A program made the position numbers and the translations under genes. The notes below the pieces were generated by a model. The model searched no databases. It saw nothing but the letters and a program-made list of their open reading frames with translations, and was not told the DNA's origin. From contig NZ_CP158687.1 in NCBI RefSeq assembly GCF_040580765.1, positions 1,054,001 through 1,118,000 on the forward strand: DNA of 64,000 nt, in the 5' to 3' direction. The stretch is from Lentibacter algarum. GTDB lineage: Bacteria; Pseudomonadota; Alphaproteobacteria; Rhodobacterales; Rhodobacteraceae. Of the stretch, positions 44,072 through 58,626 are shown in pieces (the first letter of the stretch is position 1; every line of letters starts with the position of its first letter).

Positions 44072-44147
44072 GCCCCTATAGCTCAGCTGGTAGAGCAATT
44101 GATTTGTAATCAATAGGTCCGCGGTTCGAGTCCGTGTGGGGGCACCA
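44072..44147 (+). tRNA. tRNA-Thr (anticodon TGT)
   Basis: A 76-base cloverleaf with encoded CCA. The acceptor GCCCCTA pairs with TGGGGGC, with one wobble pair. The D-arm is GCTCAGCTGGTAGAGC, the anticodon stem-loop TTGATTTGTAATCAA and the T-arm GCGGTTCGAGTCCGT. The anticodon TGT reads Thr codons ACA/ACG. Its 3' end is the left attachment site of the element that follows. Confidence 0.97.
44132..44147 (+). repeat. Left attachment repeat (attL) in the tRNA-Thr 3' end
   Basis: CCGTGTGGGGGCACCA, the last 16 bases of tRNA-Thr, is repeated exactly and in the same direction at 56527-56542. Integration of tyrosine-integrase elements at a tRNA 3' end leaves this signature: the tRNA is kept whole and a fragment marks the far end. 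Confidence 0.9.
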
Positions 44148-44306: not shown

Positions 44307-45602
44307 ATGGATAAGACTATGCCCAAACTCCCAGCCTATGTTTTTCGCAGAGCGAATGGCTCTTACCGATACAAACGCAACGTGCCCAAGAAGTTGGTTG
44401 GGTTGATTGGCAAGGCCACGTTGTATCGCCAGCTGGGGGAGAGCTACGCGGAAGCTATGCGGAACCTGCCAAAGGTCCACAGTGAGATTGAGAAACTGTT
44501 TCGGGATGAAGCTCACATGCCATCCAGTGAGCGCGCTTTGGCGATCATCCGAGGGGCCCTTGGCAGTGAGGTTGCTGAGCAGGTCCTAGCAGGGCAGGTG
44601 GTGGAGTACAGTCAAGAGGACTACGCTCTGAACGAGTTGGCCAAAGAGATTGCTGGTAAGCTCTCTGAAGACATCGTCACGCAGATCTACACGGGGCGCT
44701 TGAAACAGCCAGCGCTGACGCTTCAAAAGGCACTTGGTGAGTATCAGGCATACAAGACAGAAGATGCGGGGGAGAGCCGTGAGCTGGAGCTGCGGGTTGC
44801 GAGGGCCCTGAAGGATCTGGGAGCCGCGATCGGAAAGCAGAGAGTGGCGCAAACACCTTTGGGTGAGATTACGCGGGCAGACGCAAACGCCCTTCGAGAC
44901 TATCTGCTTGAGCGTATGAAGCCTAGCTCGGTGCATCGATATATCACCGTTGTCAGGGCTGCGGTGAACTACGTGATTACCGAACACAGCCTCAACATCC
45001 CCAACGTCTTCAATGGTCTGCGCATCAAAGGAGCTTCGGCGAGCGTTGAGGACAGGTTGCCCTTGAATGATCATGATCTTGCAATGGTTGCCCCAAACTT
45101 TGAGGATGACCCTGTGGCTCAGGCGCTGTTCGTCACCTTGACCGATACCGGTGCACGTCTCTCTGAAATCACAGGCCTTGAGGTAAGAGATGTTGATTTG
45201 CAACAGCGCTCCATCACGATCAGACCTAATGGGATCAGACAACTCAAAACCAAGGGCTCCCAACGAACCCTCCCGCTGAGCCAGAGGGCCCTAGAGTTGC
45301 TCCAGGGGCATCGGAGAGGGAAGGGGGATAGTGACCCAATCTTTGCAGAATACTCTCGTCCTCGTGGCAGAGATGCGGCCTCAGCGATGATGATGAAGCG
45401 CCTTCGCAGGAGTATCACCGACAAGAAGCTGACCATGCACAGCCTTCGCCACCGCATGAAGGACAAGCTGCGCAACACAGGCTGTCCAGAGGCCATCTCG
45501 CTGGCCATCCTCGGTCACAGCACCAACACAGTCGCTGCCAACTACGGCTCAGGCTACGCGCTGGAGGTTATGCGAGAGCATATGGAGAAGGTGTGGCAAT
45601 GA
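44307..45602 (+). CDS. Tyrosine-type integrase 1
   Basis: 431 residues. The N-terminal arm-binding/core-binding part (1-230) includes AYVFRRANGSYRYKRNVPKK. The catalytic domain (about 250-425) has the first Arg in LTDTGARLSEITGL, the box-II HSLRHRMKDKL, then LGHSTNTVAANYG and the nucleophile Tyr in NYGSGY. It directly follows the tRNA it presumably targets. Its stop overlaps the polymerase-like gene (ATGA), so the two are made together. Start ATG 44307; ATG 44319 is also possible. Confidence 0.93.
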   Translation: MDKTMPKLPAYVFRRANGSYRYKRNVPKKLVGLIGKATLYRQLGESYAEAMRNLPKVHSEIEKLFRDEAHMPSSERALAIIRGALGSEVAEQVLAGQVVEYSQEDYALNELAKEIAGKLSEDIVTQIYTGRLKQPALTLQKALGEYQAYKTEDAGESRELELRVARALKDLGAAIGKQRVAQTPLGEITRADANALRDYLLERMKPSSVHRYITVVRAAVNYVITEHSLNIPNVFNGLRIKGASASVEDRLPLNDHDLAMVAPNFEDDPVAQALFVTLTDTGARLSEITGLEVRDVDLQQRSITIRPNGIRQLKTKGSQRTLPLSQRALELLQGHRRGKGDSDPIFAEYSRPRGRDAASAMMMKRLRRSITDKKLTMHSLRHRMKDKLRNTGCPEAISLAILGHSTNTVAANYGSGYALEVMREHMEKVWQ

Positions 45603-46909
45603 CGGAGCCACAGGATATTTTTTGCAAAGACAAAGCCCGAGCATTCAACCCGTTCTTGTGTGCGAGCAACGATAAGCTGAAGACACTGATCAGAGAAGTC
45701 CAAACACAGCTGGAGGGTTATGAGGCCTTCCACAAGAGCCGCAAGCGTGCTCGCAGGGCGGTTGATCAGATCACCTATGAGCGCACCCTTGAGGCGATCC
45801 TGTGTGACCTCTGTGCTGTTGCTCTTGAGCGAGAACACAACTGTCTCCACCTGCCGCTGAGCAACAAAGTCCTGAGATCAAAGTCCCGGTACAAGGGAAC
45901 AGCCTTGGGCAAGACCCTACCAGACCTCTTGACCATGATGTCAGCACCAGAGATGGACTTTTTGCTGATCGAGAAGGGACACAGCACCTTTGAGGTGGTC
46001 GATGATGATCTGAACGTGGCCTTTGTGGGAGGACGACAAACCATCCTGATGCCAGGCCCCAAGCTGCTCTCTCGGATTGAACGCTACGCGATCACAAGAG
46101 ATGACCTCAGCCAGGCAGCTGAAGAGGAAGTGGTGATCCTGCGATCTCCCAAGCGTCACGCGAACAGCATTGCAGAGTATGAGGACTACGAGGACGATCA
46201 GACCACCCTGGCTCTGCGGGACCAAATGAGGGACATCAACGCCTGGCTCCACGCAGCAGACATTACTTGCAGCCATCTTCAGGTGAACTCAGCACAACGC
46301 CGTCTGCGCCGCATCTTCAACAACTCAGACTTTGCCCAAGGTGGTAGGCTCTATGGCGGCTTCTGGCAGGCCATGTTCTCAGGCGAACGTCAGGAACACA
46401 TCCGTATCAACCAGGATGCTGTGGTGGAGTTGGACTACGGCCAAATGAGCCTCTTGCTCTTGTATGCTGAGGCTCAAGCACAAGAACAACTGCCCTCAGG
46501 GGACCTTTATGACCTCACAGAGTATGGCATCCCAGTGATCTGTCGCCCAGGTATCAAGAAGGTGATGCAGGCGATCATCAACAGTCCGGCGCTCCCCAAA
46601 AGGCTGCCCAAGGGAGCTCGCAAGTACGTCCCGTCACGGATCAGCATGAGAGAGCTCCTCACCGCTGTGGAGCAGAAGCACCCGGCAATCTTCCCCTTGA
46701 TGACCTCAGGCCTAGGCATGCAGCTCTTCCGCACGGAGGCGGATATCCTTGTGGGGGTTCTGGAAGCCCTCAGGTGCCAGGGTATTGTTGCGCTGCCCAT
46801 CCATGATGCTGTTCTTGTTGCTGAAGCAGACAAAGGCACAACGATGAGGATCATGAAGGAGGTCTTCAAGGATCACACCGGGATCACCCCTCAGGTCAGC
46901 CTGGGGTAG
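45599..46909 (+). CDS. Divergent family-A DNA polymerase-like palm protein, no exonuclease domain
   Basis: 436 residues, coupled to integrase 1 by ATGA at 45599. Three blocks in the right order and spacing resemble a family-A polymerase palm: VVELDYGQMSLLLLYAEAQA near residue 280 (motif A, DYSQIEL-like), RPGIKKVMQAIINSPALPKR near 318 (motif B, R-x3-K), and VALPIHDAVLVAEADKG near 402 (motif C, HD). Before motif A are RLRRIFNNSDFAQGGRLYGG and FWQAMFSGERQEHIRINQDA, a stretch shared with integrase-linked hypothetical proteins known to me in alphaproteobacteria (that memory is not checked). No 3'-5' or 5'-3' exonuclease part is visible. It may be the element's replicase or a repair/priming polymerase. 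Structural comparison would settle this. Confidence 0.6.
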   Translation: MTEPQDIFCKDKARAFNPFLCASNDKLKTLIREVQTQLEGYEAFHKSRKRARRAVDQITYERTLEAILCDLCAVALEREHNCLHLPLSNKVLRSKSRYKGTALGKTLPDLLTMMSAPEMDFLLIEKGHSTFEVVDDDLNVAFVGGRQTILMPGPKLLSRIERYAITRDDLSQAAEEEVVILRSPKRHANSIAEYEDYEDDQTTLALRDQMRDINAWLHAADITCSHLQVNSAQRRLRRIFNNSDFAQGGRLYGGFWQAMFSGERQEHIRINQDAVVELDYGQMSLLLLYAEAQAQEQLPSGDLYDLTEYGIPVICRPGIKKVMQAIINSPALPKRLPKGARKYVPSRISMRELLTAVEQKHPAIFPLMTSGLGMQLFRTEADILVGVLEALRCQGIVALPIHDAVLVAEADKGTTMRIMKEVFKDHTGITPQVSLG

Positions 46910-47693
46910 GGCCTGCAAGCCCACCGCTGGTGTCCCTCTCGGCAAGACGAGAGGAAGACCCGCAGAAGCTACCCTCAAGGATATGAGGGCTACCTGTAAG
47001 GCTAGGTGTTGTTGTGTGTGGGTAAAAGAAGAACAGAAGAACAATACCACCCTAGGATAGATCCTAAGGGGGTCCTCCAACCCTCCTCATATAGGGGACC
47101 CGTATGGAGCCCCCCAAAGTATACCCAAGGATCAATGATCTGTAACACCGTCGAGAACGTCACCCTGTATCCCGGCACACCCCCAGCAAGCACCTGAGAG
47201 AAGCTCACAAGACCTCCCCACAGGGAGATCCAAGGACTGGCCCTAGAGGGTGAGTGTGGCTGTGATGAATAACAGAAGAACAATAACACCTAAGGGGCCC
47301 CTAACAGGCACCTGAGGGGAACCCTGGGAGGGGACCCTACGCGCTCTCCACCTAGGGGGCCCGTAAGAGCTGGGGGTACACCCAAAAGCAAAATATGTGC
47401 CTGGATACTTGGATGCTTGGATAGTTGGTACAGCGCCGACCGTTGCCACTGTAGCACCTTGGGGGGCGATAAAGGCACACCTTTTATGAGTTGAAAGTGC
47501 CTGGAGAGTTGGAGAGTTCACTCCTAGAGCGCTGATATTGCGCCATAATCTACTCTCCAACGAGGCGCGTGCGCTTGGAGAGTTGTTGGCGAGTTGCGGT
47601 GTTACTTTGGCGAGTTGGGCTGTCTCAAGCCCCCCGCAAAAACTGAGGAGATCCTCGCATCTATGGTGATCACAATCATCATGGAGACCGATC
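46910..47693. other. 784-bp non-coding region with hairpins and repeats; candidate replication origin
   Basis: No convincing gene is seen. It begins with two perfect hairpins: 46935-46954 (7-bp stem, loop GCAAGA) and 46972-46989 (6-bp stem). A 15-bp direct repeat AACAGAAGAACAATA occurs at 47032-47046 and 47271-47285, each followed by CACC and then a C/T/A/G-rich segment (CCTAGG or CCTAAGG). Then come the 8-bp iterons described separately. The position next to a polymerase-like gene, together with this structure, suggests an origin or a control region. Confidence 0.5.
47402..47615. repeat. Iteron-like 8-bp repeats TGGNNAGT
   Basis: Eight direct units and one inverted unit are seen: TGGATACT, TGGATGCT, TGGATAGT in tandem (47402-47425); TGGAGAGT twice in tandem (47502-47517); ACTCTCCA, the inverted unit (47552-47559); TGGAGAGT (47576-47583); TGGCGAGT (47587-47594) and TGGCGAGT (47608-47615). 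Such clustered near-identical units are typical of Rep-binding iterons. Confidence 0.6.
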
Positions 47694-47924
47694 ATGTTTA
47701 CGACCTTTACGGCCCTTGTTCTTGCAGGGGGCGGGCTTCGGCTTGTCCTGCAGTGGCAGCTGAAGCGACGCTGGGACATCTCACTGGCAGTACCCCAGGC
47801 TCTGGCGGGGGCGCTTGTTGTTCTGGCGGGACTGCCTGAGTTCCTCAAGCCCTTGCCCTTTCCAGTGCCGCTGAGCCTCACTCTTGGCCTGCTGCTGCCT
47901 GACCTTCTGCTGAGGAGGGGCTGA
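47694..47924 (+). CDS. Small membrane protein of the element
   Basis: 76 residues: FTTFTALVLAGGGLRLVLQW, then QALAGALVVLAGLPEF and PVPLSLTLGLLLPDLLLRRG. Three hydrophobic stretches and short loops give it a holin-like look, but no lysis genes are near. The stop is 1 base before the next ATG, suggesting coupling. No recognised family. Confidence 0.55.
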   Translation: MFTTFTALVLAGGGLRLVLQWQLKRRWDISLAVPQALAGALVVLAGLPEFLKPLPFPVPLSLTLGLLLPDLLLRRG

Positions 47925-47925
47925 G

Positions 47926-48126
47926 ATGGATCAGCACAGACCCCCCATCACGCCAGGCTGCACAGTGCTGCTTGCTGGCTTTGATGACATCCCTGAGCAT
48001 GCGTTCCTGGTGGAGGAGGTCTTTGAGGACCTCATCACTGGGACAGCCCTCACAGGACCTCTCTCTGGGGAGTACGGAGAACCAGACATTGCGTTGGTTC
48101 TTCGGGTCCTTCCTGGACCAAACTAG
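47926..48126 (+). CDS. Small acidic protein of the element
   Basis: 66 residues: MDQHRPPITPGCTVLLAGFD, then DIPEHAFLVEEVFEDLITGT and LSGEYGEPDIALVLRVLPGP. It resembles small phage or plasmid proteins with a single beta-rich fold, but I recognise no family. It begins GAGATGG right after the previous stop, and is followed by a 108-bp gap before integrase 2. Confidence 0.55.
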   Translation: MDQHRPPITPGCTVLLAGFDDIPEHAFLVEEVFEDLITGTALTGPLSGEYGEPDIALVLRVLPGPN

Positions 48127-48234
48127 CCCAAGCAGGCGTCAGGGAAGGGCTTAGTCCCTGACGCATGTTGTTCTGCATCACAAAACCCAACCCACACCCC
48201 ACAAGCGGGGCAATTGCCCCAGAAAGGAGACGTC

Positions 48235-49509
48235 ATGTCGCCACAGATCAAATACGCCTACAAGAGGCACAACACCTGGGTCTACCGCAGAACCTACCCC
48301 AAGGCTCTGCAGCCCATCCTCGGCAGCGCCCTCAAGCAATCCCTCAAGACCAGCGATGCCACCCAAGCCAAGACCCGTGTGGCTGAGCTCAACCAAACCT
48401 TTACAACTCTCATCAAGGAGGCTCAGGCCCATGCCGCTGCTACCTCTCTCACCGCTACTCCCACTGATACCCTCACTGCTGGCCAAGCTCCTCGACTGGG
48501 GGTTACTCGCCCTCGATATCAGCGTGCTCGTCTTGTGGGGGATGGGCTGGTAGCGGAGCTGGCTCAAGCCTACCTTGCTGAGGCCTCTCAGCGCCTACGT
48601 CCTGGCAGTTACAAGTCGGTGCGCTTTGCGCTGGAGTTGCTCTGCTCGCATCTGGGTCAGCAGCAGGTAGGAGCGCTGACCCAAGCACAAGGTCGGGAGG
48701 TCCTGGGCTACATCACCCAGCTCTCTCCCAACGTGCGCAAGTACAGGGAGGGGAAGGAGGCCATCTTGCCAGAGCTTGCAACTCTCTCCCGGGAGCAGGA
48801 GAGCACCACGCTGGCACCCCAGACCCAGGCGCGTATCCTGAAGCAGATGTCCCAGTTCCTTGACTGGTGCGTTGGGGAAGGGGAGCTGCACTCAAACCCC
48901 TGGGCAGCCCTCAAGGTCAAAGACAAGCCAGAGGTCCATCCCCACGGAATGCTGAGTGATGAGCAGGTGCGTATCCTCCTCAGTGCCAAGGACAGAGTCC
49001 TGCACAGTGCTCTGCTCTTCGGGTTGCTCACAGGTATGCGCTCAGGCGAAATCTGCGGGCTCATGGCGGAGGATGTCACAGCCAAGGGCAACCTGGGGCG
49101 CTTCATCAGCATCAAGCCCAACAGGGTGCGTTTGCTGAAGTCCAAGGCAGCAGAGCGGGAGGTGCCGCTGCATGGTATCCTCGAGAACCTGCTGGACACG
49201 GCACTGCCAACGTCAGGAAGGCTCTTTCCGCACCTCAGCGTGGACAGGGTGGTGAAGCGCTACGCTTACCTGCGCAGGCGTCACCCAGAGCTCAGCGGCA
49301 CGGTGTTCCACTCCACCCGCAAGTGGTTCATCACCCAGTGCGAGCGCACAGGGGTCCCCGAGCACTTCACCGCAAGCCTCGTGGGTCATCACTCTGCGAG
49401 GTCGGCCAATAAGCTGACCTATGGCCTCTACTCCGCAGGTATATCCGATGCGCAGAAGCGGGAGATCGTTGAAGGGGTGAGGGTGCCAGACTGGGAGGGC
49501 GTCCCATGA
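48235..49509 (+). CDS. Tyrosine-type integrase 2
   Basis: 424 residues from ATG 48235, which follows AAAGGAGA. The N-terminus QIKYAYKRHNTWVYRRTYPK is the standard arm/core-binding opening of this integrase group. The catalytic domain (about 245-415) has Arg in LLTGMRSGEICGLM, Lys in LLKSKAAEREVPL, VFHSTRKWFITQCE (H-x-x-R), ASLVGHHSARSANKLTYG and Tyr in GLYSAG. It overlaps the next small gene by ATGA. Having its own integrase type distinct from integrase 1 suggests it once belonged to another element or has a recombination-directing role. Confidence 0.92.
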   Translation: MSPQIKYAYKRHNTWVYRRTYPKALQPILGSALKQSLKTSDATQAKTRVAELNQTFTTLIKEAQAHAAATSLTATPTDTLTAGQAPRLGVTRPRYQRARLVGDGLVAELAQAYLAEASQRLRPGSYKSVRFALELLCSHLGQQQVGALTQAQGREVLGYITQLSPNVRKYREGKEAILPELATLSREQESTTLAPQTQARILKQMSQFLDWCVGEGELHSNPWAALKVKDKPEVHPHGMLSDEQVRILLSAKDRVLHSALLFGLLTGMRSGEICGLMAEDVTAKGNLGRFISIKPNRVRLLKSKAAEREVPLHGILENLLDTALPTSGRLFPHLSVDRVVKRYAYLRRRHPELSGTVFHSTRKWFITQCERTGVPEHFTASLVGHHSARSANKLTYGLYSAGISDAQKREIVEGVRVPDWEGVP

Positions 49510-49706
49510 ACGGCTCCCGTGAGGCAGACCCGAACCTTATCCTTGATATCGAGGCCTTCGAGTAACGGGCCGCCATCGCACAGTATGATGAGGGGCTGAC
49601 ACTTGATGAGGCGGAAGACCTTGCCGCTCAGGACCAAGGCTTTGGCAGTGCCGCAGACTACTGGCACTGGCTGGCCACTTACGTCGCCAACCGAGGGTTC
49701 ACCTAG
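49506..49706 (+). pseudogene. Small integrase-coupled gene interrupted by one in-frame TAA
   Basis: ATG 49506 overlaps the integrase 2 stop. The frame reads MNGSREADPNLILDIEAFE, then TAA at 49563-49565, then continues open for 46 codons as RAAIAQYDEGLTLDEAEDLA and AQDQGFGSAADYWHWLATYV to a TAG at 49704-49706. Small proteins with the pattern E-R-A-A-I-x-x-Y/F-D-x-G-L-x-x-x-E-A-E are widespread beside alphaproteobacterial integrases (recalled, not checked). One substitution, for example GAA to TAA, would explain the stop. Confidence 0.7.
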
Positions 49707-49721
49707 GCCAACCAAAATAAA

Positions 49722-49777
49722 CCCCGTCCGGCTGCTCTATGCGAGTGGTCGGGCGGGGGATGTAAACCTATTTTTTT
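49722..49777 (+). terminator. Weak terminator-like hairpin after the integrase 2 genes
   Basis: CCCCGTCCG (49722-49730) pairs with CGGGCGGGG (49750-49758), including one G-T pair. A run of seven T starts 13 bases later (49771), which is far for an intrinsic terminator. The remaining sequence to 50003 shows nothing else. Confidence 0.4.
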
Positions 49778-50003: not shown

Positions 50004-50888
50004 TCAGGCCCGCCTCTCGCTGCGATCATTTTCAGCCCGCAACCAGTCCAAGAATGCCTCTGCGCCCTGAGACATCGGCTGATCCGTGAAAATGACAAAG
50101 TAACCAGCGTTTTCAACTCTGACATCGGACAAGCGGACAAGCGTGCCGTCGTCAATTTCTGGCGCGATCAGATCATCCCAAAGCGCCAACCCCTGACCAT
50201 CCACCACCGCCTGAACGCGGCTGTTTGAGTCAGGAACCGTCAAGCTGGACCGGCTGGGTGCGTACGGCAGCCCTGCAGCTTTGTGCCAGGCGCGCCACCC
50301 CGCATCGCCGGAGCTGTCACCCAAGAGCGGAAGCTGCCTGACCGCTTCGGGCAATCCAAGCTGCCTTACCTGCTCAGCAACTGCACGGCTGGCGGTTGGC
50401 ACAGCAGGCAGGGACAGAAGAAGTTCGCTCTTATGACCCTCCCAGCCGTCAATTCCCCAGAGGATTGCCATGTCGACTTTGACCGATCTCATCATGTCGA
50501 CGGAATTGATCGGTTCGATCCGCAGGCTGATACCGGGATTGGCCTCAAAAAAGCGGGTGAGCCTTGGCGACAGCCAGCGTGAAGAGAAGTAGGTCAGCGC
50601 GCCAACGGTCACGGCACCTGAGACAGTGCCACGCAGGTCTTCGATTTCACGGTCGATCTGGCTCAGGGCCGTTTGGGACACATGCCACAATCTGCGCCCT
50701 TCTTCTGTCAGTCCCAGTTTTGCGTGCGTGCGCTCGAACAGACGAAAGCCTAGCTCGGCTTCAAGCTTGTTGATTTGGTAACTGATCGACCCTTTCGACT
50801 GATGCACCTCGTCCGCCGCCTTGGTCATCGACAGAGTGCGGGCAACGGCATCAAAGATCTTGAGGGCATCATAAGAACGAAAGCGCAT
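50004..50888 (-). CDS. LysR-type transcriptional regulator (GcvA-like)
   Basis: 294 residues. The N-terminal helix-turn-helix is DAVARTLSMTKAADEVHQSK followed by GSISYQINKLEAELGFRLFE. The effector domain begins at about residue 90 (GAVTVGALTYFSSRWLSPRL). It matches the GcvA-like LysR subgroup, which has no close tie to one ligand. It is divergent from the four-gene catabolic operon at 51041 and, as usual for LysR proteins, probably controls it in response to the substrate. Confidence 0.92.
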   Translation of the reverse strand: MRFRSYDALKIFDAVARTLSMTKAADEVHQSKGSISYQINKLEAELGFRLFERTHAKLGLTEEGRRLWHVSQTALSQIDREIEDLRGTVSGAVTVGALTYFSSRWLSPRLTRFFEANPGISLRIEPINSVDMMRSVKVDMAILWGIDGWEGHKSELLLSLPAVPTASRAVAEQVRQLGLPEAVRQLPLLGDSSGDAGWRAWHKAAGLPYAPSRSSLTVPDSNSRVQAVVDGQGLALWDDLIAPEIDDGTLVRLSDVRVENAGYFVIFTDQPMSQGAEAFLDWLRAENDRSERRA

Positions 50889-50937: not shown

Positions 50938-51040
50938 GCTGAGCGCAGTTGGTCCAATATCACTAACTCAATGCGTGGCACCCATCTGTCCTTGTCGAAG
51001 ATCACCCGCAGGCGTCTAACAACTCTGAACGGTGAACAAT

Positions 51041-52252
51041 ATGACAACTGACCTTTCCCACTTCCGCTTCGTCGCCAAAGCTCTCCCCAATCAGGGCGCG
51101 CGACCCCGCGAATTGGCCCGCACCATGCCGGCCCATCCGCTGAGCTACATGGAACTGCCATATGATCCCGAATACACGCTCTATAACTTGCGCCTGACGC
51201 CAGAAAAGCTGGACACGGCCACGGATGACGAGATGTATTGGGCCGTGCGCACCAATGTCATTTTCCGCCACACCGGCGAATTGCCAATCGAGATTAGCGG
51301 GCCGGATTCTGAGGCCCTGCTGAACAAGGTTTTCACCCGGAGTGTCAGCAAGGTGAAGCCGGGGCGCTGTTCCTATCAGTTTGCCTGCTATCACGACGGC
51401 GGCATGATCACCGACGGGGTGCTGTTGCGGTTGTCGCAGGACAGGTTCTGGATGGCGCAGGCCGACGGCGACCTATTCAGCTGGTACAAGGCCCACGCCG
51501 AAGGGCTAGACGTGAAAATCCACGACCCGAATGTCTGGGTAAGCCAGATTCAAGGCCCACGGTCGCTGGACTTGCTGGCTGCTGTGCTGGACGGCCCCAT
51601 GCCCGATCCTTTCCGCTATTTCGACTGCGCCGAGGTTTCCATCGCGGGGCAGACCTGCTGGATTAGCCGCTCGGGCTTCACCAATGAACTGGGCTGGGAA
51701 GTCTACATGTTACCCGACACCGACATCCCCGCCATCGGTGACAAGATCATGGAGGCAGGTGCTGCCTTCGGCATTCTGCTGACCGGAACACCAGTATTCC
51801 GCGCGCGGCGGATCGAGGCAGGGTTGCTCAATGCCGGCTCGGATTTCGGGGCGGAGACGACGCCGTTTGAGGCAGGGCTTGGCGGATTTGTCGAATTTGA
51901 TGATCGCGATTTTGTTGGCCGCAAAGCGCTGGAGGCATCTGACAAATCCTGCCGCACCTGGGGCATGCGGGTCACCGGCGGTGTCGCACAGCTTGGCCGC
52001 GTCATCACCATTGATGGCGAAGAGGTCGGCCGGGTCTGTTCTTCGGGCTATTCGCCCTATCAGGGCTGCGGTGTCTGCATCGTGCGCATGGATGTCCTTG
52101 CACAGGGTTCGGGCACAAAGGTGGACGTGCTTTGCGCTGATGGTTCCACCCAGAGCGGTGAGCTCTGCACCCTGCCGATGTATGATGCGGACCGCCTGAT
52201 ACCACGCGGCAAGCTGGTGGACATCCCCACAAGCCCAATAGCGGCGGAATAA
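51041..52252 (+). CDS. GcvT/DmdA-family protein (probable tetrahydrofolate-dependent methyl or aminomethyl transferase)
   Basis: 403 residues from ATG 51041. The GcvT fold is visible: NVIFRHTGELPIEISGPDSE, GGMITDGVLLRLSQDRFWM, VWVSQIQGPRSLDLLAAVL, SRSGFTNELGWEVYM and RARRIEAGLLNAGSDFG. The family uses tetrahydrofolate to take a methyl or aminomethyl group from glycine-cleavage protein, dimethylglycine, DMSP (DmdA) or aromatic methoxy groups (LigM/DesA). It is about the length of DmdA and much shorter than LigM. Which substrate applies cannot be told by eye; operon context suggests an O-, N- or S-demethylation before CoA activation. It is followed by the CoA ligase after 2 bp. Confidence 0.75.
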   Translation: MTTDLSHFRFVAKALPNQGARPRELARTMPAHPLSYMELPYDPEYTLYNLRLTPEKLDTATDDEMYWAVRTNVIFRHTGELPIEISGPDSEALLNKVFTRSVSKVKPGRCSYQFACYHDGGMITDGVLLRLSQDRFWMAQADGDLFSWYKAHAEGLDVKIHDPNVWVSQIQGPRSLDLLAAVLDGPMPDPFRYFDCAEVSIAGQTCWISRSGFTNELGWEVYMLPDTDIPAIGDKIMEAGAAFGILLTGTPVFRARRIEAGLLNAGSDFGAETTPFEAGLGGFVEFDDRDFVGRKALEASDKSCRTWGMRVTGGVAQLGRVITIDGEEVGRVCSSGYSPYQGCGVCIVRMDVLAQGSGTKVDVLCADGSTQSGELCTLPMYDADRLIPRGKLVDIPTSPIAAE

Positions 52253-52254
52253 CC

Positions 52255-53859
52255 ATGTATGACCTAGCGCTCCTCACCTCCCATGCTCCGGCCCAGTCCG
52301 ACATGAAGACGCACGAGATCACCATCGGCGCATTGCTGCGCGAGGTTACTGTCGCGCGGCCTGATGCAGAGGCCCTTGTGGAAGTCAGGCAGGACGGATC
52401 GACAGGGCGGCGTTGGACTTACGCCGAACTGCTGGCCGACTCCGAGCGGCTGGCCATGGCGCTCTCCACCCGGTTTGCGCCCGGCGAGCGGGTGGTCATC
52501 TGGTCGCCCAACAGCCCCGAATGGGTCCTGATGGAATATGCCTGCGCGCTGTCCGGGCTGGTGCTGGTTACTGCGAACCCGGCCTTTCAGGCGCGGGAGT
52601 TGGCCTATGTGCTGGAACAATCCGGCGCGGTCGCCTTGTTTCTTGTCGAAGAATTTCGCGGCAACCCGATGGGCCGGATCGGGGCTGAGATGTCGGCGAA
52701 TATTTCAACGGTGCGCGAAGTCACTGACATGGAAAGCACAGCGCTTTACGCACAAGGGGCGCGACCGCCTGCTGTGCCCGACGTCGCCCCGACCGATGCC
52801 GCGATGATCCAGTACACGTCCGGCACCACTGGCTTTCCCAAAGGGGCGGTGCTCAGCCATCGCGGGCTGGTCAACAATGCACGCTTCTACGCGTCCCGCT
52901 GCGGCGCGACCAAGGCGACCACCTGGGTAAACATCATGCCGATGTTTCACACCTCGGGCTGCGGTATGGTTACGCTTGGTTGCCTGCAGGCGGGGTGCCG
53001 CATGGTGCTGATCAATCTGTTTGATCCGGATGTTGTGCTTGACCGGTTGGAAGCGAACGGCGCGGACATCATCCTTGGCGTGCCGACCATGGTGGTGGCC
53101 TTGCTCGATGCACAAGAGGCGTGTCCGCGAGACCTGTCGGCCCTGAAGCTCGTCAGCTGCGGCGGCTCGATGGTGGCCCCCGAACTGGTGCGAAGGGTGC
53201 AAGTGCTGATGGGGGCAGGTTTCTCAACCCTATACGGGCAGACCGAACACAGTCCGGTGATCACACAACATCATCTGGACGACAGCATCGACGACATCTG
53301 CAACACGGCTGGCCAGGCAGTGGCGCAGACCGAGGTCTCGATCCGCAGCGTCGTTAACAATAGTGCTGTCGCCGTCGGAGAGGTCGGGGAAATCTGTGCC
53401 CGCGGCCCCTGCGTCATGCTGGAATACAACGACAACCCCAAGGCCACGTCCGAGACCGTCGACGCGATGGGTTGGCTGCACACGGGCGATCTGGGCCGGA
53501 TGGATGCGCGCGGCTACGTCACCGTGACGGGACGGGTCAAGGAAATGATCATCCGGGGTGGCGAGAACCATTTTCCGGCCGAGATCGAGAACTGCCTGTT
53601 GGAACATGGCTGCGTGGTCGAGGTCGCCGTTGTCGGCCTGCCGGACCCGAAATGGGGTGAGGTCATCGGCGCGTTCATCCGCGGCACAGGACCACTCGAC
53701 AAGGGCGCGCTGCATGCTCATTGCCGCGCAAACATATCCCCGCAGAAAACCCCGAATGTTTGGGTGCTGGTCGAAGACTTCCCCCTGACCGGCTCGGGAA
53801 AAATCCAGAAATTTGTTCTCCGCGATCGTTTCGTCGCCGGGGAATATTCTGAACTCTGA
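52255..53859 (+). CDS. Acyl-CoA ligase of the cargo operon
   Basis: 534 residues. The P-loop is IQYTSGTTGFPKGAVLSHRG, hinge GWLHTGDLGRMDARGYVTVT, and catalytic lysine LTGSGKIQKFVLR. The middle stretch NIMPMFHTSGCGMVTLGCLQ is common to medium-chain and aromatic acid ligases. It could activate the acid made by the GcvT-like step (DmdB-like), or a methoxy-aromatic acid. The start may be 52255 or Met at 52303 (MKTHEITIG), which is more family-like. It is separated from the GcvT-like gene by only 2 bp. Confidence 0.88.
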   Translation: MYDLALLTSHAPAQSDMKTHEITIGALLREVTVARPDAEALVEVRQDGSTGRRWTYAELLADSERLAMALSTRFAPGERVVIWSPNSPEWVLMEYACALSGLVLVTANPAFQARELAYVLEQSGAVALFLVEEFRGNPMGRIGAEMSANISTVREVTDMESTALYAQGARPPAVPDVAPTDAAMIQYTSGTTGFPKGAVLSHRGLVNNARFYASRCGATKATTWVNIMPMFHTSGCGMVTLGCLQAGCRMVLINLFDPDVVLDRLEANGADIILGVPTMVVALLDAQEACPRDLSALKLVSCGGSMVAPELVRRVQVLMGAGFSTLYGQTEHSPVITQHHLDDSIDDICNTAGQAVAQTEVSIRSVVNNSAVAVGEVGEICARGPCVMLEYNDNPKATSETVDAMGWLHTGDLGRMDARGYVTVTGRVKEMIIRGGENHFPAEIENCLLEHGCVVEVAVVGLPDPKWGEVIGAFIRGTGPLDKGALHAHCRANISPQKTPNVWVLVEDFPLTGSGKIQKFVLRDRFVAGEYSEL

Positions 53860-53874
53860 CAGACAGGAACTGCC

Positions 53875-55308
53875 ATGCAAGACGCATCCAAACACTATAT
53901 CAACGGCCAATGGGTCGCCTCGGTCGACGGGCGCGAAATGGCGGTTGAGAACCCGTCTACTGAAGAGAAGATCGCCACGATCACTTTGGGTGGCGTCGCA
54001 GATTCTGACGCGGCCGTCGCCGCAGCCAAGGCAGCTTTCCCGGCCTGGGCGGCAACAGATCCTTTGGGCCGGATCGCCGTACTGGAACGGTTGATGGAGG
54101 TCTACAAATCGCGGGCCGAAGACATGGCACAGGCCATCAGCGTTGAGATAGGCGCACCTATTGCGCTTGCAAGAACTACACAGGTCGGTGCCGGGGCGGG
54201 GCATCTCAAGAACACCATTCGGGCGGCCAAGGCTTTCGCCTTTGAGCGTCCCCTTGGGGAGCACGCGCCCAGCGACATGATCCTTTACGAGCCGGTCGGT
54301 GTCTGCGCCCTGATCACCCCGTGGAACTGGCCGATGAACCAGGTGATGCTGAAGGTCGCCCCGGCGCTGGCGGCAGGCTGCACGGTGGTGCTGAAACCAT
54401 CGGAACTGTCGCCGCTCAGCGCCATTCTGCTTGCCGAGATGATTGATGAGGCAGGTTTCTCGCCCGGTGTGTTCAATCTTGTGAACGGAGATGGCACTGG
54501 CGTTGGCACGCATCTCACCGCGCACCCGGATGTGGATATGGTCAGCTTCACCGGGTCCACCCCTGCAGGTGTCGCGATCAGCAAGGCCGCTGCGGATACC
54601 GTCAAGCGCGTCAGTCTGGAACTGGGCGGCAAGGGGGCCAACATCATCTTCGCCGATGCCGATGAAAAGGCCGTTACGCGCGGCGTGCGTCATTGTTTCA
54701 ACAACTCGGGCCAGTCCTGCAACGCGCCGACCCGCATGCTGGTGGAACGCGGGGTCTATGACCAAGCCGTTGAAACCGCCCGTACGATAGCCGAGAAAAC
54801 AGAGGTCGGACCAGCGGATATCGAAGGTCGCCAGATCGGGCCAGTTGTGTCGGAATTGCAGTTCAACAAGATCCAATATCTGATCAAGAGCGGCATTGAC
54901 GAACACGCCACGCTGGTCGCAGGTGGCCTTGGCCGCCCTGTGGGGCTGAATCGAGGCCACTTCGTGCGCCCCACGATCTTTGCAGATGTCACGCCGGACA
55001 TGACGATCTGGAAGGAAGAAATCTTTGCGCCGGTTCTTGTGATGACACCGTTTGACACCGAAGAGGAGGCCATCGCGCTTGCCAATGACACGCACTATGG
55101 TCTGACGAATTATGTTCAGACTGCCGACAAAACACGCGCTCGTCGGGTGGCGCGCGGGCTGCGGTCCGGTATGGTTGAGATGAACGGAAAATTCGGCGGT
55201 GCGGGCTCGCCTTTCGGCGGCATGAAGCAGTCGGGCAATGGCCGTGAAGGTGGTGTCTGGGGTCTTGAGGAATTCCTTGAGGTCAAGGCCGTCAGCGATT
55301 GGGAGTGA
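53875..55308 (+). CDS. NAD(P)-dependent aldehyde dehydrogenase
   Basis: 477 residues. The catalytic cysteine is in FNNSGQSCNAPTRM near residue 281, and the general base Glu in VSLELGGKGANIIF near 247. The cofactor loop is SFTGSTPAGVAI, and ITPWNWPMNQVMLKVAPALA is the standard oxyanion/cofactor segment. It is like the CddD-type group of ALDHs acting on semialdehydes and aldehydes. In this operon it could oxidise acetaldehyde or an aromatic or C3 aldehyde released by the crotonase step. Confidence 0.92.
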   Translation: MQDASKHYINGQWVASVDGREMAVENPSTEEKIATITLGGVADSDAAVAAAKAAFPAWAATDPLGRIAVLERLMEVYKSRAEDMAQAISVEIGAPIALARTTQVGAGAGHLKNTIRAAKAFAFERPLGEHAPSDMILYEPVGVCALITPWNWPMNQVMLKVAPALAAGCTVVLKPSELSPLSAILLAEMIDEAGFSPGVFNLVNGDGTGVGTHLTAHPDVDMVSFTGSTPAGVAISKAAADTVKRVSLELGGKGANIIFADADEKAVTRGVRHCFNNSGQSCNAPTRMLVERGVYDQAVETARTIAEKTEVGPADIEGRQIGPVVSELQFNKIQYLIKSGIDEHATLVAGGLGRPVGLNRGHFVRPTIFADVTPDMTIWKEEIFAPVLVMTPFDTEEEAIALANDTHYGLTNYVQTADKTRARRVARGLRSGMVEMNGKFGGAGSPFGGMKQSGNGREGGVWGLEEFLEVKAVSDWE

Positions 55309-55310
55309 GC

Positions 55311-56156
55311 ATGGCAAAGGTTCTGTACGAGAAAGATGGCCGGATCGGGCGGATCACCCTGAACCGACCTGAAGTGATGAATGCGATCGACGATGATCTG
55401 CCGCGCGAACTGGCGGCGGCGGTTGCAGAGGCCGACCATGATCGCGACGTACACGTGATGGTCCTGTCCGGCGCAGGAAAGGCATTTTGCGCAGGCTACG
55501 ATCTGGCCCACTACGCGGCGGGCAACGGCCCCAACAAGGTGGTGCAGGACATGCCCTGGGACCCAATGCAGGATTTCCAGTTCATGTGGGCGAACACGCA
55601 GGCCTTCATGTCGCTCTTTCGGGCGATGAAGCCGGTGATCTGCAAGGTGCATGGACACGCCGTCGCGGGCGGATCAGATATTGCGCTCTGCGCAGACCTG
55701 ACTGTCATGGGCGACACCGCGCAAATCGGTTATATGCCAACACGTGTCTGGGGCTGCCCGACAACGGCGATGTGGGTGCACCGACTGGGGCCGGAAAAGG
55801 CCAAGCGCATGATGTTCACGGGTGACAAGATAACCGGCGTTGAAGCCGCAGAGATGGGACTGGTGCTGAAATCCGTGCCTGACGCTCAGCTCGATGCCGA
55901 AGTCGAGGCGCTGGCCGCCCGGATGGCATCCGTGCCGATCAACCAACTGGCCATGCAGAAGATGGTGATCAACGCGGCCGTTGAAGAAAAAATCAACCAG
56001 ACCCAGCGCATTGCCACAGTATTCGACGGCATCACCCGCCATTCACCCGAGGGCATGAATTTCAAAGCCCGCGTGGAGCAAGTCGGCTGGAAACAAGCGG
56101 TGCAGGAACGGGACGCCGGAACATTCGACTGGACCCGCAACAAACCCTTCGACTGA
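55311..56156 (+). CDS. Crotonase-fold enoyl-CoA hydratase-like protein
   Basis: 281 residues from ATG 55311, 2 bp after the ALDH gene and behind GGGAG. Oxyanion hole: MVLSGAGKAFCAGYDL and VHGHAVAGGSDIALCADL. At the two catalytic glutamates of canonical hydratases, it has Asp (GSDIAL) and no acid at the second position (IGYMPTRVWGCP), so hydration by the usual mechanism is uncertain. Other crotonase reactions (hydrolysis, isomerisation, C-C cleavage) remain possible. This argues against a straightforward DmdD (which has both Glu). Last gene of the cargo operon. Confidence 0.87.
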   Translation: MAKVLYEKDGRIGRITLNRPEVMNAIDDDLPRELAAAVAEADHDRDVHVMVLSGAGKAFCAGYDLAHYAAGNGPNKVVQDMPWDPMQDFQFMWANTQAFMSLFRAMKPVICKVHGHAVAGGSDIALCADLTVMGDTAQIGYMPTRVWGCPTTAMWVHRLGPEKAKRMMFTGDKITGVEAAEMGLVLKSVPDAQLDAEVEALAARMASVPINQLAMQKMVINAAVEEKINQTQRIATVFDGITRHSPEGMNFKARVEQVGWKQAVQERDAGTFDWTRNKPFD

Positions 56157-56445
56157 TAATTCGGGTACGGCAACCGAAATCAGTGCTTCGGCTTGATTGA
56201 CCAAATAGCGGTAAGGTTCCGCACAGTGTGAATGCGAGGTTGCAGATTTGCTGCGGCCTGCCGGAATGGCTGCATTCTTCTCTGCCATGCAGCGAGTAAA
56301 ATTCGGCAGTGCGGCGGGGAGGCGCGCTGCGAGCGCACGCAGCGAGAAAATCGAATTCACAGGATGGGCTCTCCACGGCCATTCGCTGCAACGTGCGCCA
56401 TGGTCTGCTTTAGCTCGAAAACCATAACGCCTTAGGCTTAAAATC

Positions 56446-56526: not shown

Positions 56527-56542
56527 CCGTGTGGGGGCACCA
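56527..56542 (+). repeat. Right attachment repeat (attR)
   Basis: CCGTGTGGGGGCACCA, identical to the last 16 bases of tRNA-Thr at 44132-44147. The preceding bases (TTTTTG) do not match the tRNA, so the duplicate stops exactly here. Confidence 0.9.
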
Positions 56543-56618: not shown

Positions 56619-57337
56619 TACGTATTTGGTTTTTGGCCAACACTTGTTCTGAATAACTTCCTGTGCAACGCGCGCCCGCATGCGCGTCAGTGTGTGCTGG
56701 TTAGCAATGAGGCTCGATGATAACGGGGCTGGTCTAATTCTTTGCCCACATTGCGCCGTACCGGTGTGCGTGTCGTACTTTTTCCCGTTTACGGAAATTC
56801 TGGCATAATGGGCGTTCACGCGCGGGCGCGCATGCGTGGAAGGGTAAACGACAACCCCTTAAGGCACCTTCTGTCGCTAAGATGACTAAATGGCGCGAAC
56901 CACTCGCAATAACGGTCCTGTCAGAGGACCCGCCAGCAAAAGTGTTGCTCGCTCCAGAAACCGGTTTCTAGCAACGCTCGTAAATAGCTTGCTAGCGCTC
57001 ATTTTTTGGGTTGCTATGAAGTCAGATGCTGCGAAAATTATGGGACGCAGAACCTACATCACGAAATTTGGAAGTAAGGGTGTTGGCGTACGCCTGAGCG
57101 CAAAACTGGTGGGGCATTCACATTGATATGAATGCGGAACAGTTGGCCAAAGCTGTGAGTTGAAATTGGGGTAAGGTAATGTGCCGCCGTACTTTGTCGT
57201 GCCAAGGCAAACGCCGCCCTCTGACACTGGCCTATCAGAATCTTACACCTTTTGTGTGGGGCCAGCTAACCGCTTTAGCCCTTGTGACAAAAAATCAATG
57301 GTAATCCCCCCATTTTTAATGGGGTCCGCCTGTAGAA

Positions 57338-58138
57338 CTACGCGGCGATTTTCAGTTTCATAGCGGGTGTGATGCCGCCGATGGCCATGTTGGGCCGGTC
57401 GTTGTTGTAAGTCCAGAGCCATTCGGTTGCTTGTTCTTGGGCCTCCTCGATAGTTTCAAAGATGTTCTGATCCAGCCATTCGTGGCGCACCGTGCGATTG
57501 TAGCGCTCGATGTAGGCGTTCTGTTGCGGCTTTCCTGGCTGGATGTATTCAATGTGAATGCCACGCGTCTCAGCCCATGATTTCAGCAGCCCACTGACAT
57601 ATTCTGGGCCGTTATCAACGCGGATTACCTCCGGCGCGCCGCGCCATTCGATGATCTGGTTCAGGCTGCGCACAACACGCACGGCGGGTAGCGAGAAGTC
57701 CACTTCAATGCCCAGGCCCTCTCGGTTGTAATCATCCAACACATTGAGGGTCCGGAACTTTCGCCCATCCGCCAGCTGATCCTGCATAAAGTCCATCGAC
57801 CATGTGTGGTTGGGGGCTTCCGGCACTGCCAGTTCATCCGGCTTGGGCCGTTTCAGCCGCTTACGCGGCCTGATACGCAGGTTCAGCTCCAACTCGCAGT
57901 AGATCCGGTACACGCGCTTGTGGTTCCATTCATAGCCTTTGACGTTGCGTAGATACAAAAAACACAACCCAAAGCCCCACGTCTTGCGATTGGCCGTCAG
58001 GCGTACCAACCAATCCGCGATCTCAGCATTCTCATCGTCAAACTTGCGCTCATAACGATAGCACGTTTCGCTGATCTCAAAGGCGCGGCACGCCAGCGCG
58101 ATGCTGACCTGTTTCGTTCTCACCGCGTTTACGGCCAT
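57338..58138 (-). CDS. IS3-family transposase OrfB (DDE integrase core)
   Basis: 266 residues. The DDE triad lies in [24 protein letters not shown], and [20 protein letters not shown]. The N-terminal part has [20 protein letters not shown], an HTH_21-like region. The C-terminus [20 protein letters not shown] is typical of IS407/IS511-type members. It lies in the -1 frame relative to OrfA, so the working transposase is probably the OrfAB fusion. Confidence 0.93.
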
Positions 58139-58158
58139 CTCGCGTCGCTGAGACGGCC

Positions 58159-58428
58159 TTACCGCTTTTTTTCAAGGGCTTCCTTCAGCAGATCATTCTG
58201 CATGCTCATCTCAGCATACATCCGCTTCAGACGACGGTTCTCAGCCTCCATCGCCTTCATTTGCGATACCATCGAAGCATCCATGCCGCCGAACTTCGCA
58301 CGCCATTTGTAAAAACTCGCACTGCTCATCCCATGTTCACGGCACAGCTCAGAGACAGGCACACCGCTCTCCGCTTGCTTCAAAATACCCATGATCTGCG
58401 CGTCGCTAAATCGTCCGTTCTTCATCAA
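58159..58428 (-). CDS. IS3-family transposase OrfA (helix-turn-helix)
   Basis: 89 residues. HTH_8-type DNA-binding domain: [20 protein letters not shown], then [20 protein letters not shown]. The C-terminus is a leucine-rich coiled coil ([20 protein letters not shown]). It ends in a slippery run that allows fusion with OrfB. Confidence 0.93.
58165..58171 (-). promoter_or_regulatory. Programmed -1 frameshift signal A AAA AAG
   Basis: On the minus strand, codons GAA AAA AAG end orfA, giving the heptamer A-AAA-AAG in the correct phase. A -1 slip here joins OrfA to the OrfB frame, the usual way IS3 elements make their active transposase. Confidence 0.8.
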
Positions 58429-58491
58429 AAATCTCCTCAGATATCATGCCGAGAAAATTCTACTGTTGAACACCACTAATTTGCGGGGGGA

Positions 58492-58626
58492 TTACCGCAT
58501 GGCAACCAGGTTCTCAAACACTGGTCGTTGTTGTGCATCAGCGATTGTGCCCGATGTTAGAAGAGCGGGAAGAAACAAAGCAGTGCTGCCAAGTAAAAAC
58601 TTCCGTCGAGAGAGTGCGGGTTCCAT
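58492..58626 (-). pseudogene. N-terminal fragment of a Tat-exported protein, cut off by the IS3 element
   Basis: 44 residues remain: MEPALSRRKFLLGSTALFLP, then ALLTSGTIADAQQRPVFENL and VAMR. The first part is a clear Tat signal (SRRKFLLGS). The stop codon TAA is supplied by the IS inverted repeat. A MerR/CueR-like operator lies about 45 bp upstream, so the lost gene was probably copper-inducible; a multicopper oxidase would fit, but the remaining piece is too short to prove it. Confidence 0.8.

Follow-up and report, generated by a model that had tools for sequence, protein, structure and literature searches.

What does a nuclease-free family-A polymerase do inside an integrative element? The question is raised by a locus of Lentibacter algarum that lies in a stretch of 64,000 nucleotides, referred to here as the window (contig NZ_CP158687.1, positions 1,054,001 to 1,118,000 of the forward strand). 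Analysis of the window revealed an integrative element of about 12.5 kb that comprises a tRNA-Thr gene, a tyrosine recombinase (Int1), the polymerase (TV-Pol), a 20-bp site, a second tyrosine recombinase (Int2), genes of metabolic cargo and, at the far end, a repeat of the last 16 bp of the tRNA gene (Table 1). The data indicate that the polymerase is a member of the TV-Pol/divPolA2 group and not a new kind, and on balance we favour a role as a TV-Pol-type primase-polymerase that primes and copies the excised island.

Translation of the polymerase open reading frame (ORF; 45599-46909, + strand) gave a protein of 436 amino acids in which DYGQMSLLLLYAEA, RPGIKKVMQAIINSP and LPIHDAVLV appear in sequential order, in agreement with a preliminary description of this DNA. 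The gene arrangement behind the integrase coupling noted there was also observed, the polymerase ATG sharing the tetranucleotide ATGA with the stop codon of Int1 (44307-45602), an overlap from which translational coupling may be expected. The ratio of non-synonymous to synonymous substitution rates (dN/dS) was 0.19 in comparison with a sister copy in the same genome (L005) and 0.15-0.20 in comparison with loci L009, L011, L013 and L014, dS being saturated in the comparisons with L015-L018. The polymerase ORF is a genuine gene under purifying selection.

A first protein search returned 828 homologues at E<=1e-3; 577 and 624 matches were obtained in two subsequent rounds that used broader alignments, the overlap between searches not being listed. 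Among the matches listed, homologues carried no Pfam domain and their names, where given, were "hypothetical" or "uncharacterized"; several came from Planktomarina and other Rhodobacteraceae. The polymerase itself had no match in Pfam, NCBIfam or PADLOC, and its only PHROGs match was phrog_4756, a family of unknown function (E 2.6e-26). Sequence searches of the PDB with single proteins returned nothing apart from one chance match, and a PDB profile search gave three weak matches, the best of them to a winged helix (DP-2, E 0.16). A role as an anti-phage defence gene was considered and rejected: PADLOC gave no match for P0001, Int1, Int2 and P0125, and a chance-level one for P0124 (E 0.0092).

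The predicted model contains a palm fold, preceded by an N-terminal part that mixes helix and strand. Strands 237-241 and 244-252 form a hairpin before the palm, with R250 (57 of 57 sequences) within it, and a helix at 201-219 stands ahead of the hairpin. In the fold search, the rows with the highest Z-scores were mitochondrial and T7 RNA polymerases, level with DNA polymerases. No nuclease domain was found, Pfam and NCBIfam searches being blank and the 436 residues being shared out between polymerase core and N-terminal domain. The family-A palm without exonuclease proposed in the preliminary description, which was to stand or fall with a palm in the predicted fold, is thus present in the model. 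On the other hand, the shortened finger helix reported there is not evident, as the helix that bears R316 and K320 spans 16 residues (313-328).

Inspection of an alignment of 57 family sequences revealed that D279, R250, R264, E277, D302, Y304, R316 and K320 are invariant, and that H402 and D403 of motif C are kept in 55 sequences, the remaining two showing P and a gap. The residue that follows this His-Asp pair is S in 30 sequences, A in 21, G in four and a gap in two, and never the E found in the HDE motif of the host Pol I. The HDA triplet, initially taken as an oddity of this protein, is therefore one form of a family-wide feature. The hint of a non-working enzyme that had been read from HDA and motif B is not supported, as both features are shared across the family by genes that evolve under purifying selection.

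The positions that form the sugar gate were assigned by their spacing to the motifs, with the host Pol I as yardstick. Five residues past the motif A Asp (E381 in the host Pol I) the family has H in 29 sequences, S in 23, G in four and N in one; eight residues past the motif B Arg (host F433) it has Q in 27, L in 21 and N in nine; and twelve residues past the same Arg (host Y437) it has N in 56 and Q in one. The Pol I tyrosine at this last position helps to exclude ribonucleotides. The same function is assigned to E710 and F762 of E. coli Pol I (PMC7581432; this paper, PMC10061031, PMC11348598 and PMC12926913 are cited throughout from the parts available to us). Since none of the 57 sequences retains the residues with which Pol I rejects ribonucleotides, we infer a relaxed choice of sugar, and the polymerase can probably start strands with ribonucleotides. 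The sequence thereby offers a clear test, that of a primase with a Pol I fold from which the ribonucleotide-excluding residues have been lost; if true, it would represent a minimal way of starting DNA strands.

TV-Pol was described by Iyer, Abhiman and Aravind in 2008 as a minimal superfamily-A polymerase of mobile elements with integrases or resolvases; it was first noticed beside a D5-like helicase, for example in Loktanella vestfoldensis, and was proposed to be a mobile-element primase-polymerase (PMC2579912). Its core consists of two palm aspartates, a hairpin with an absolutely conserved Arg, a fingers Asp with RxxxK, and a thumb of two antiparallel helices (PMC2579912). Three of these four features were found in the window polymerase, namely the palm aspartates, the hairpin R250, and the fingers D302 with R316 and K320. 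Like TV-Pol, it is a nuclease-free superfamily-A core located within a mobile element beside recombinases, and the link to a D5 helicase was observed in Loktanella (now Yoonia) vestfoldensis, a carrier named in PMC2579912. The polymerase of Y. vestfoldensis SKA53 (L011) is 73% identical to that of the window, the carrier being matched at the level of the species. Unlike the TV-Pol of that paper, the window copy has no helicase gene and is placed between two tyrosine recombinases, and its modelled N-terminal domain combines strands with helices; an all-helical domain, for a subset only, had been predicted in PMC2579912.

The phage polymerases named divPolA2 in 2024, from Rheinheimera barbaviruses and other phages (PMC11348598), belong to the same group as the TV-Pol polymerase studied here. 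They share with it the palm, the N-terminal globular domain, the lack of an exonuclease and the structural matches to Pol I and mitochondrial RNA polymerase. Nearly full-length fold matches were obtained to Rheinheimera and Aeromonas phage proteins (for the Barba31A protein, E 3.6e-18 over 456 columns, with a template modelling score, TM, of 0.52), and 115 Rheinheimera phage records matched P0126, a Desulfovibrio relative, at E<=1e-3 (tblastn). Unlike the window polymerase, divPolA2 sits in phage genomes with an additional regular polymerase and not in an integrative element.

Priming by a related primase-polymerase, CCPol-MP, was demonstrated in 2020 (PMC7581432), while PolA-SSB primases have also been reported (PMC10061031); both resemble the window protein in being exonuclease-free family-A polymerases of integrative elements. 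CCPol retains the Glu and Phe of the Pol I sugar gate and has a sequence close to that of Pol I (PMC7581432), whereas the window family is devoid of the E710- and F762-equivalent residues and no gene adjoining the window polymerase was recognised as an OB-fold partner. Regarding the cellular enzymes, bacterial PolA1 has a 5'-3' exonuclease, and PolA1-3 carry a 3'-5' exonuclease domain, intact or vestigial (PMC12926913). PolA1, PolA2 and PolA3 have the superfamily-A palm in common with the window polymerase, which unlike Pol I (PolA1) has neither exonuclease domains nor HDE. The available parts of this 2026 survey of bacterial polymerases, in which PolA1, PolA2, PolA3 and PolA1-like groups are distinguished, contain no group resembling the TV-Pol-type protein. 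A new, undescribed polymerase family was rejected, as the group is already present in PMC2579912 and PMC11348598. The initial statement that no function had been described is superseded by the TV-Pol of 2008 (PMC2579912), the related primase of 2020 (PMC7581432) and the divPolA2 of 2024 (PMC11348598). These assignments connect three lines that were previously untied in the literature available to us: TV-Pol, known from bacterial islands, divPolA2, known from phages, and the functionally unassigned family phrog_4756.

The family phrog_4756 was detected in 25 of 198 genomes of the bacterial family and in 25 of 398 genomes sampled from the phylum, which together make 47 distinct genomes; the host genome has four copies. 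The viral contigs searched gave one locus. Neighbourhoods of about 8 kb per side were analysed in 20 of the 47 genomes, picked by eye for long contigs, with stretches L142 and L143 shortened by contig ends; the recombinase profiles were grown from recombinases of the islands of this genome, with iteration on this same set. Of the 20 wider homologues, 16 had a recombinase nearby (tyrosine in 15, serine in 11), compared with one of the 19 stretches taken as controls from these contigs. Two distant paralogues in the same genome (L001 721-2268, 515 aa; L002 1216-2649, 477 aa) are longer and have HDSF as motif C; both are near other tyrosine recombinases, with a serine recombinase also around L001.

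The 16-bp repeat that bounds the element can be compared with chance, matches of up to 14 having been obtained in 200 Markov sequences of equal length (38.8 kb). In five other loci close to a tRNA gene no tRNA-end repeat of at least 15 bp was found in the DNA examined, which was short for most loci. Other islands occupy the same tRNA-Thr in two related genomes (L096 and L097); these lack the genes described here and have tRNA-end repeats as borders, at distances of 13.5 and 4.6 kb. The repeats of the window provide likely borders for a small type of island with metabolic genes in marine Rhodobacteraceae.

To the second copy in the same genome (L005), window positions 45380-49777 match at 92.8% identity, the 5' part of Int1 being merely about 64% identical where alignable. 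This copy is located at a tRNA-Leu gene and lies between the two exact copies of a 29-bp repeat that spans the tRNA end, at a distance of 9.7 kb. Directly past this repeat lies a tandem element (L180 1953-8486) with its own Int1 and Int2, 58% and 93% identical to those of the window, respectively, and no TV-Pol; in the place of the latter it carries a 571-aa D5-like protein (L180 4390-6102; DUF5906 E 6.9e-18) and an HNH protein. In the Y. vestfoldensis loci L011 and L020, the same polymerase is followed by DUF5906 proteins and HNH genes located between polymerase and Int2, so that a D5-like helicase is present with both copies; the DUF5906 protein of L011 also matches the P4-type primase C-terminal (helicase) model (E 2e-12, below cut-off). 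Since the helicase is found in the tandem element and the polymerase elsewhere, the pair of the Y. vestfoldensis type is split across sister elements in this genome. It has to be added that the TV-Pol frame of L020 (5992-7310) is broken into two pieces, the L011 copy being intact. Rearranged Int1 genes were also observed: in L009, L010, L013 and L019 only the last 26-40 Int1 codons directly precede TV-Pol, joined to other sequence, and further Int1 pieces lie some 3-5 kb upstream of the polymerase in L009 and L010, the HTCC2083 copies, which are 99.9% identical across 5.2 kb.

A conserved 20-bp site follows the polymerase gene. It was surveyed in 18 loci of the clade, of which L012 and L021 end within the polymerase gene and L019, which holds only a partial polymerase gene, did not show it. 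In the other 15 loci the site was found 3' of the polymerase gene, with 0-2 mismatches in 14 and four in L014, within 200 bases of the gene in 14 and at 3.3 kb in L122; these 15 include L010 and L020 as second copies in genomes already counted, besides the window and L005, and L120, whose gene is partial. A search of 394 family genomes with an 18-base pattern (<=2 mismatches) gave 18 sites in 14 genomes, versus eight for a reversed control pattern. All seven exact sites adjoin Int1 or TV-Pol of this clade, and the single one-mismatch site lies between TV-Pol and Int2; of the ten two-mismatch sites, two lie by an Int2 and eight by nothing related within 2-3 kb (up to 9 kb). In genome G013, two of three exact sites come after an Int1 gene, TV-Pol being absent from the 14 kb examined, and the third follows a partial TV-Pol, indicating that the site belongs to the element and not to the polymerase gene. 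Furthermore, the sequence common to L011 and L020, which are almost identical copies of the element, ends four bases past the site, after which the cargo differs. The site is a putative origin, a putative recombination site or both. A conserved RNA hairpin was rejected, as RNAfold structures vary between loci and no Rfam match was found there, and so was an ordinary right attachment site (attR), since the site is unlike tRNA ends by eye and the tRNA repeats lie elsewhere. Before Int2, at window positions 47397-47623, there are short direct repeats of the type TTGGAxAGTTGG, iteron-like by eye, with similar-looking runs in L009 and L013.

In the mechanism that we propose, Int1 would insert the element at the tRNA-Thr end and excise it, and the polymerase, produced by translational coupling with Int1, would initiate and elongate strands on the excised DNA, possibly from the conserved site or the repeats immediately 3' of its gene, and probably with ribonucleotides as first units. 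A D5-family helicase would open the duplex; its gene is missing from the window element and might be supplied in trans by the sister element elsewhere in the genome. Of the functions originally put side by side (replication, priming or repair of an integrative element), replication or priming gives the best reading, repair being kept as a rival. Rather doubtful, in our judgement, is the more ambitious scheme of a replication system split in two halves, one being this element and the other the sister island with its D5-like helicase, in which the polymerase acts as a family-A primase that uses ribonucleotides and the 20-bp site is a start of copying or a point of cargo exchange. No primase of that type is shown in the literature consulted. 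As far as the literature searched in part extends, four points are new: the probable borders of the island, the placement of polymerase and helicase in separate sister islands, the site linked to the element, and the loss of the Pol I sugar-gate residues throughout the family.

Several observations weigh against this copying role. D5-like helicases, searched with a profile grown from two seeds, were found near none of the 20 wider homologues, and the pairing of polymerase and helicase is therefore not general. The far border of the tandem helicase element was not found within the 19.5 kb examined, the tRNA-Thr repeat has just 16 bp, and no clean empty insertion site was found in the genomes examined. 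The comparison with host Pol I profiles by hhalign was not significant (Prob 1.3%, versus 2.7% for an integrase control). The SSB-like partner (MP) that CCPol requires for priming has no counterpart beside the polymerase gene. Cyanophage LMM01, a carrier named in PMC2579912, gave no match to the profiles of the family (199 ORFs of at least 100 aa, from four stretches spanning the genome, genes at stretch ends being only partly covered), indicating that the TV-Pol of 2008 is broader than the reach of these profiles. Barbavirus divPolA2 coexists with a regular PolB in variable neighbourhoods and is thought by its authors not to be the replicative enzyme of these phages (PMC11348598), a view that slightly lowered our confidence in copying. 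Finally, no assayed enzyme of this subgroup turned up in the literature as consulted, from which newer papers on A-family primases may be missing.

Two rivals to the primase-polymerase deserve most attention. The first is a small single-subunit RNA polymerase that would transcribe the genes of the element from its own promoters, as T7 RNA polymerase does. The likeness to T7-type enzymes is a fold match, in which mitochondrial and T7 RNA polymerases share the top rank with DNA polymerases, and it is accompanied by the absence of the Pol I Glu and Phe from all 57 sequences; the same possibility was raised for divPolA2 (PMC11348598), and the N-terminal domain and the downstream site could be a promoter-binding pair. 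However, the site is located downstream of the gene and, for two of three exact copies in G013, after an Int1 gene that lacks TV-Pol across the 14 kb examined, and the linkage to recombinases, together with the D5-like helicase of Y. vestfoldensis, is a replication-type context, so that we regard transcription as unlikely. The second rival is gap filling or repair at integration and excision, or in the host, with no copying of the whole element. It is suggested by the overlap of the Int1 and TV-Pol genes, by the lack of D5-like helicases near the wider homologues and by the divPolA2 authors, who propose repair because the phages also have a regular PolB (PMC11348598). The helicase link in Y. 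vestfoldensis, on the contrary, indicates the copying of longer stretches. Tyrosine recombination, moreover, leaves no gaps, and this role is, in our view, equally improbable. A catalytically dead palm protein retained for DNA binding or regulation, which the missing HDE glutamate and the two missing sugar-gate residues might suggest, is very improbable given purifying selection and the conservation of both catalytic aspartates (D403 in 55 sequences), RxxxK and the hairpin Arg in the 57 sequences, and some superfamily-A enzymes, such as T7 RNA polymerase, likewise have no HDE.

Table 1. Features of the tRNA-Thr element, in window positions (attL and attR, left and right attachment sites)
Feature	Position	Strand	Evidence or remark
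tRNA-Thr (TGT), putative insertion site of the element	44072..44147	+	ARAGORN; Rfam tRNA E 1e-14
Candidate attL, final 16 nt of the tRNA gene, CCGTGTGGGGGCACCA	44132..44147	+	exact repeat at 56527-56542
Int1, tyrosine recombinase, 431 aa	44307..45602	+	PF00589 E 1.1e-16
TV-Pol / divPolA2-type polymerase	45599..46909	+	436 aa; N-terminal domain ~20-180, palm and fingers ~175-436
Catalytic Asp of motif A (D279)	46433..46435	+	D in 57/57; coordinates derived from the ORF
RxxxK of motif B (R316, K320)	46544..46558	+	each 57/57
His-Asp of motif C (H402, D403)	46802..46807	+	55/57
Spacer between polymerase and Int2	46910..48213	+	short direct repeats, e.g. 47028-47056 / 47267-47295
Conserved site after TV-Pol, CATATAGGGGACCCGTATGG	47088..47107	+	found once in the window, none expected
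Degenerate second copy of the site, 5 mismatches	47349..47368	+	similar second copies in L005, L009, L010, L013
Int2, second tyrosine recombinase, 424 aa from ATG 48235	48235..49509	+	PF00589 E 7.1e-8, DUF6538 E 5e-11
Cargo: LysR-type regulator	50004..50888	-	NCBIfam LysR-type models, best below curated cut-off
Cargo: GcvT-fold demethylase-like enzyme	51032..52252	+	PF01571 E 1.5e-44
Cargo: acyl-CoA ligase	52255..53859	+	PF00501 E 6.8e-82
Cargo: aldehyde dehydrogenase	53875..55308	+	NCBIfam aldehyde dehydrogenase models, best below cut-off
Cargo: enoyl-CoA hydratase family	55308..56156	+	PF00378 E 5e-44
Candidate attR, 16-bp repeat of the tRNA-Thr end	56527..56542	+	exact match to attL

Regarding the remaining features of the element, the spacer between polymerase and Int2 contains neither a helicase nor a partner gene, its sole + strand ORF of at least 80 aa being an unnamed one of 81 aa (47594-47839). 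An alternative start of Int2 at a TTG codon (48214) would give a protein of 431 aa. The GcvT-like cargo enzyme matched the NCBIfam models for trimethylamine N-oxide (TMAO) demethylase (E 3.8e-55) and dimethylsulfoniopropionate (DMSP) demethylase (E 3.2e-52), in both cases far below the cut-offs. Part of the cargo (52754-56162) reappears beside Int2 in Thalassobium R2A62, with 85.6% identity and in inverted order. Immediately to the right of the element, an insertion sequence of 1.2 kb with a DDE core domain was found (57299-58497), which is present at three further positions of the genome with 100% identity.

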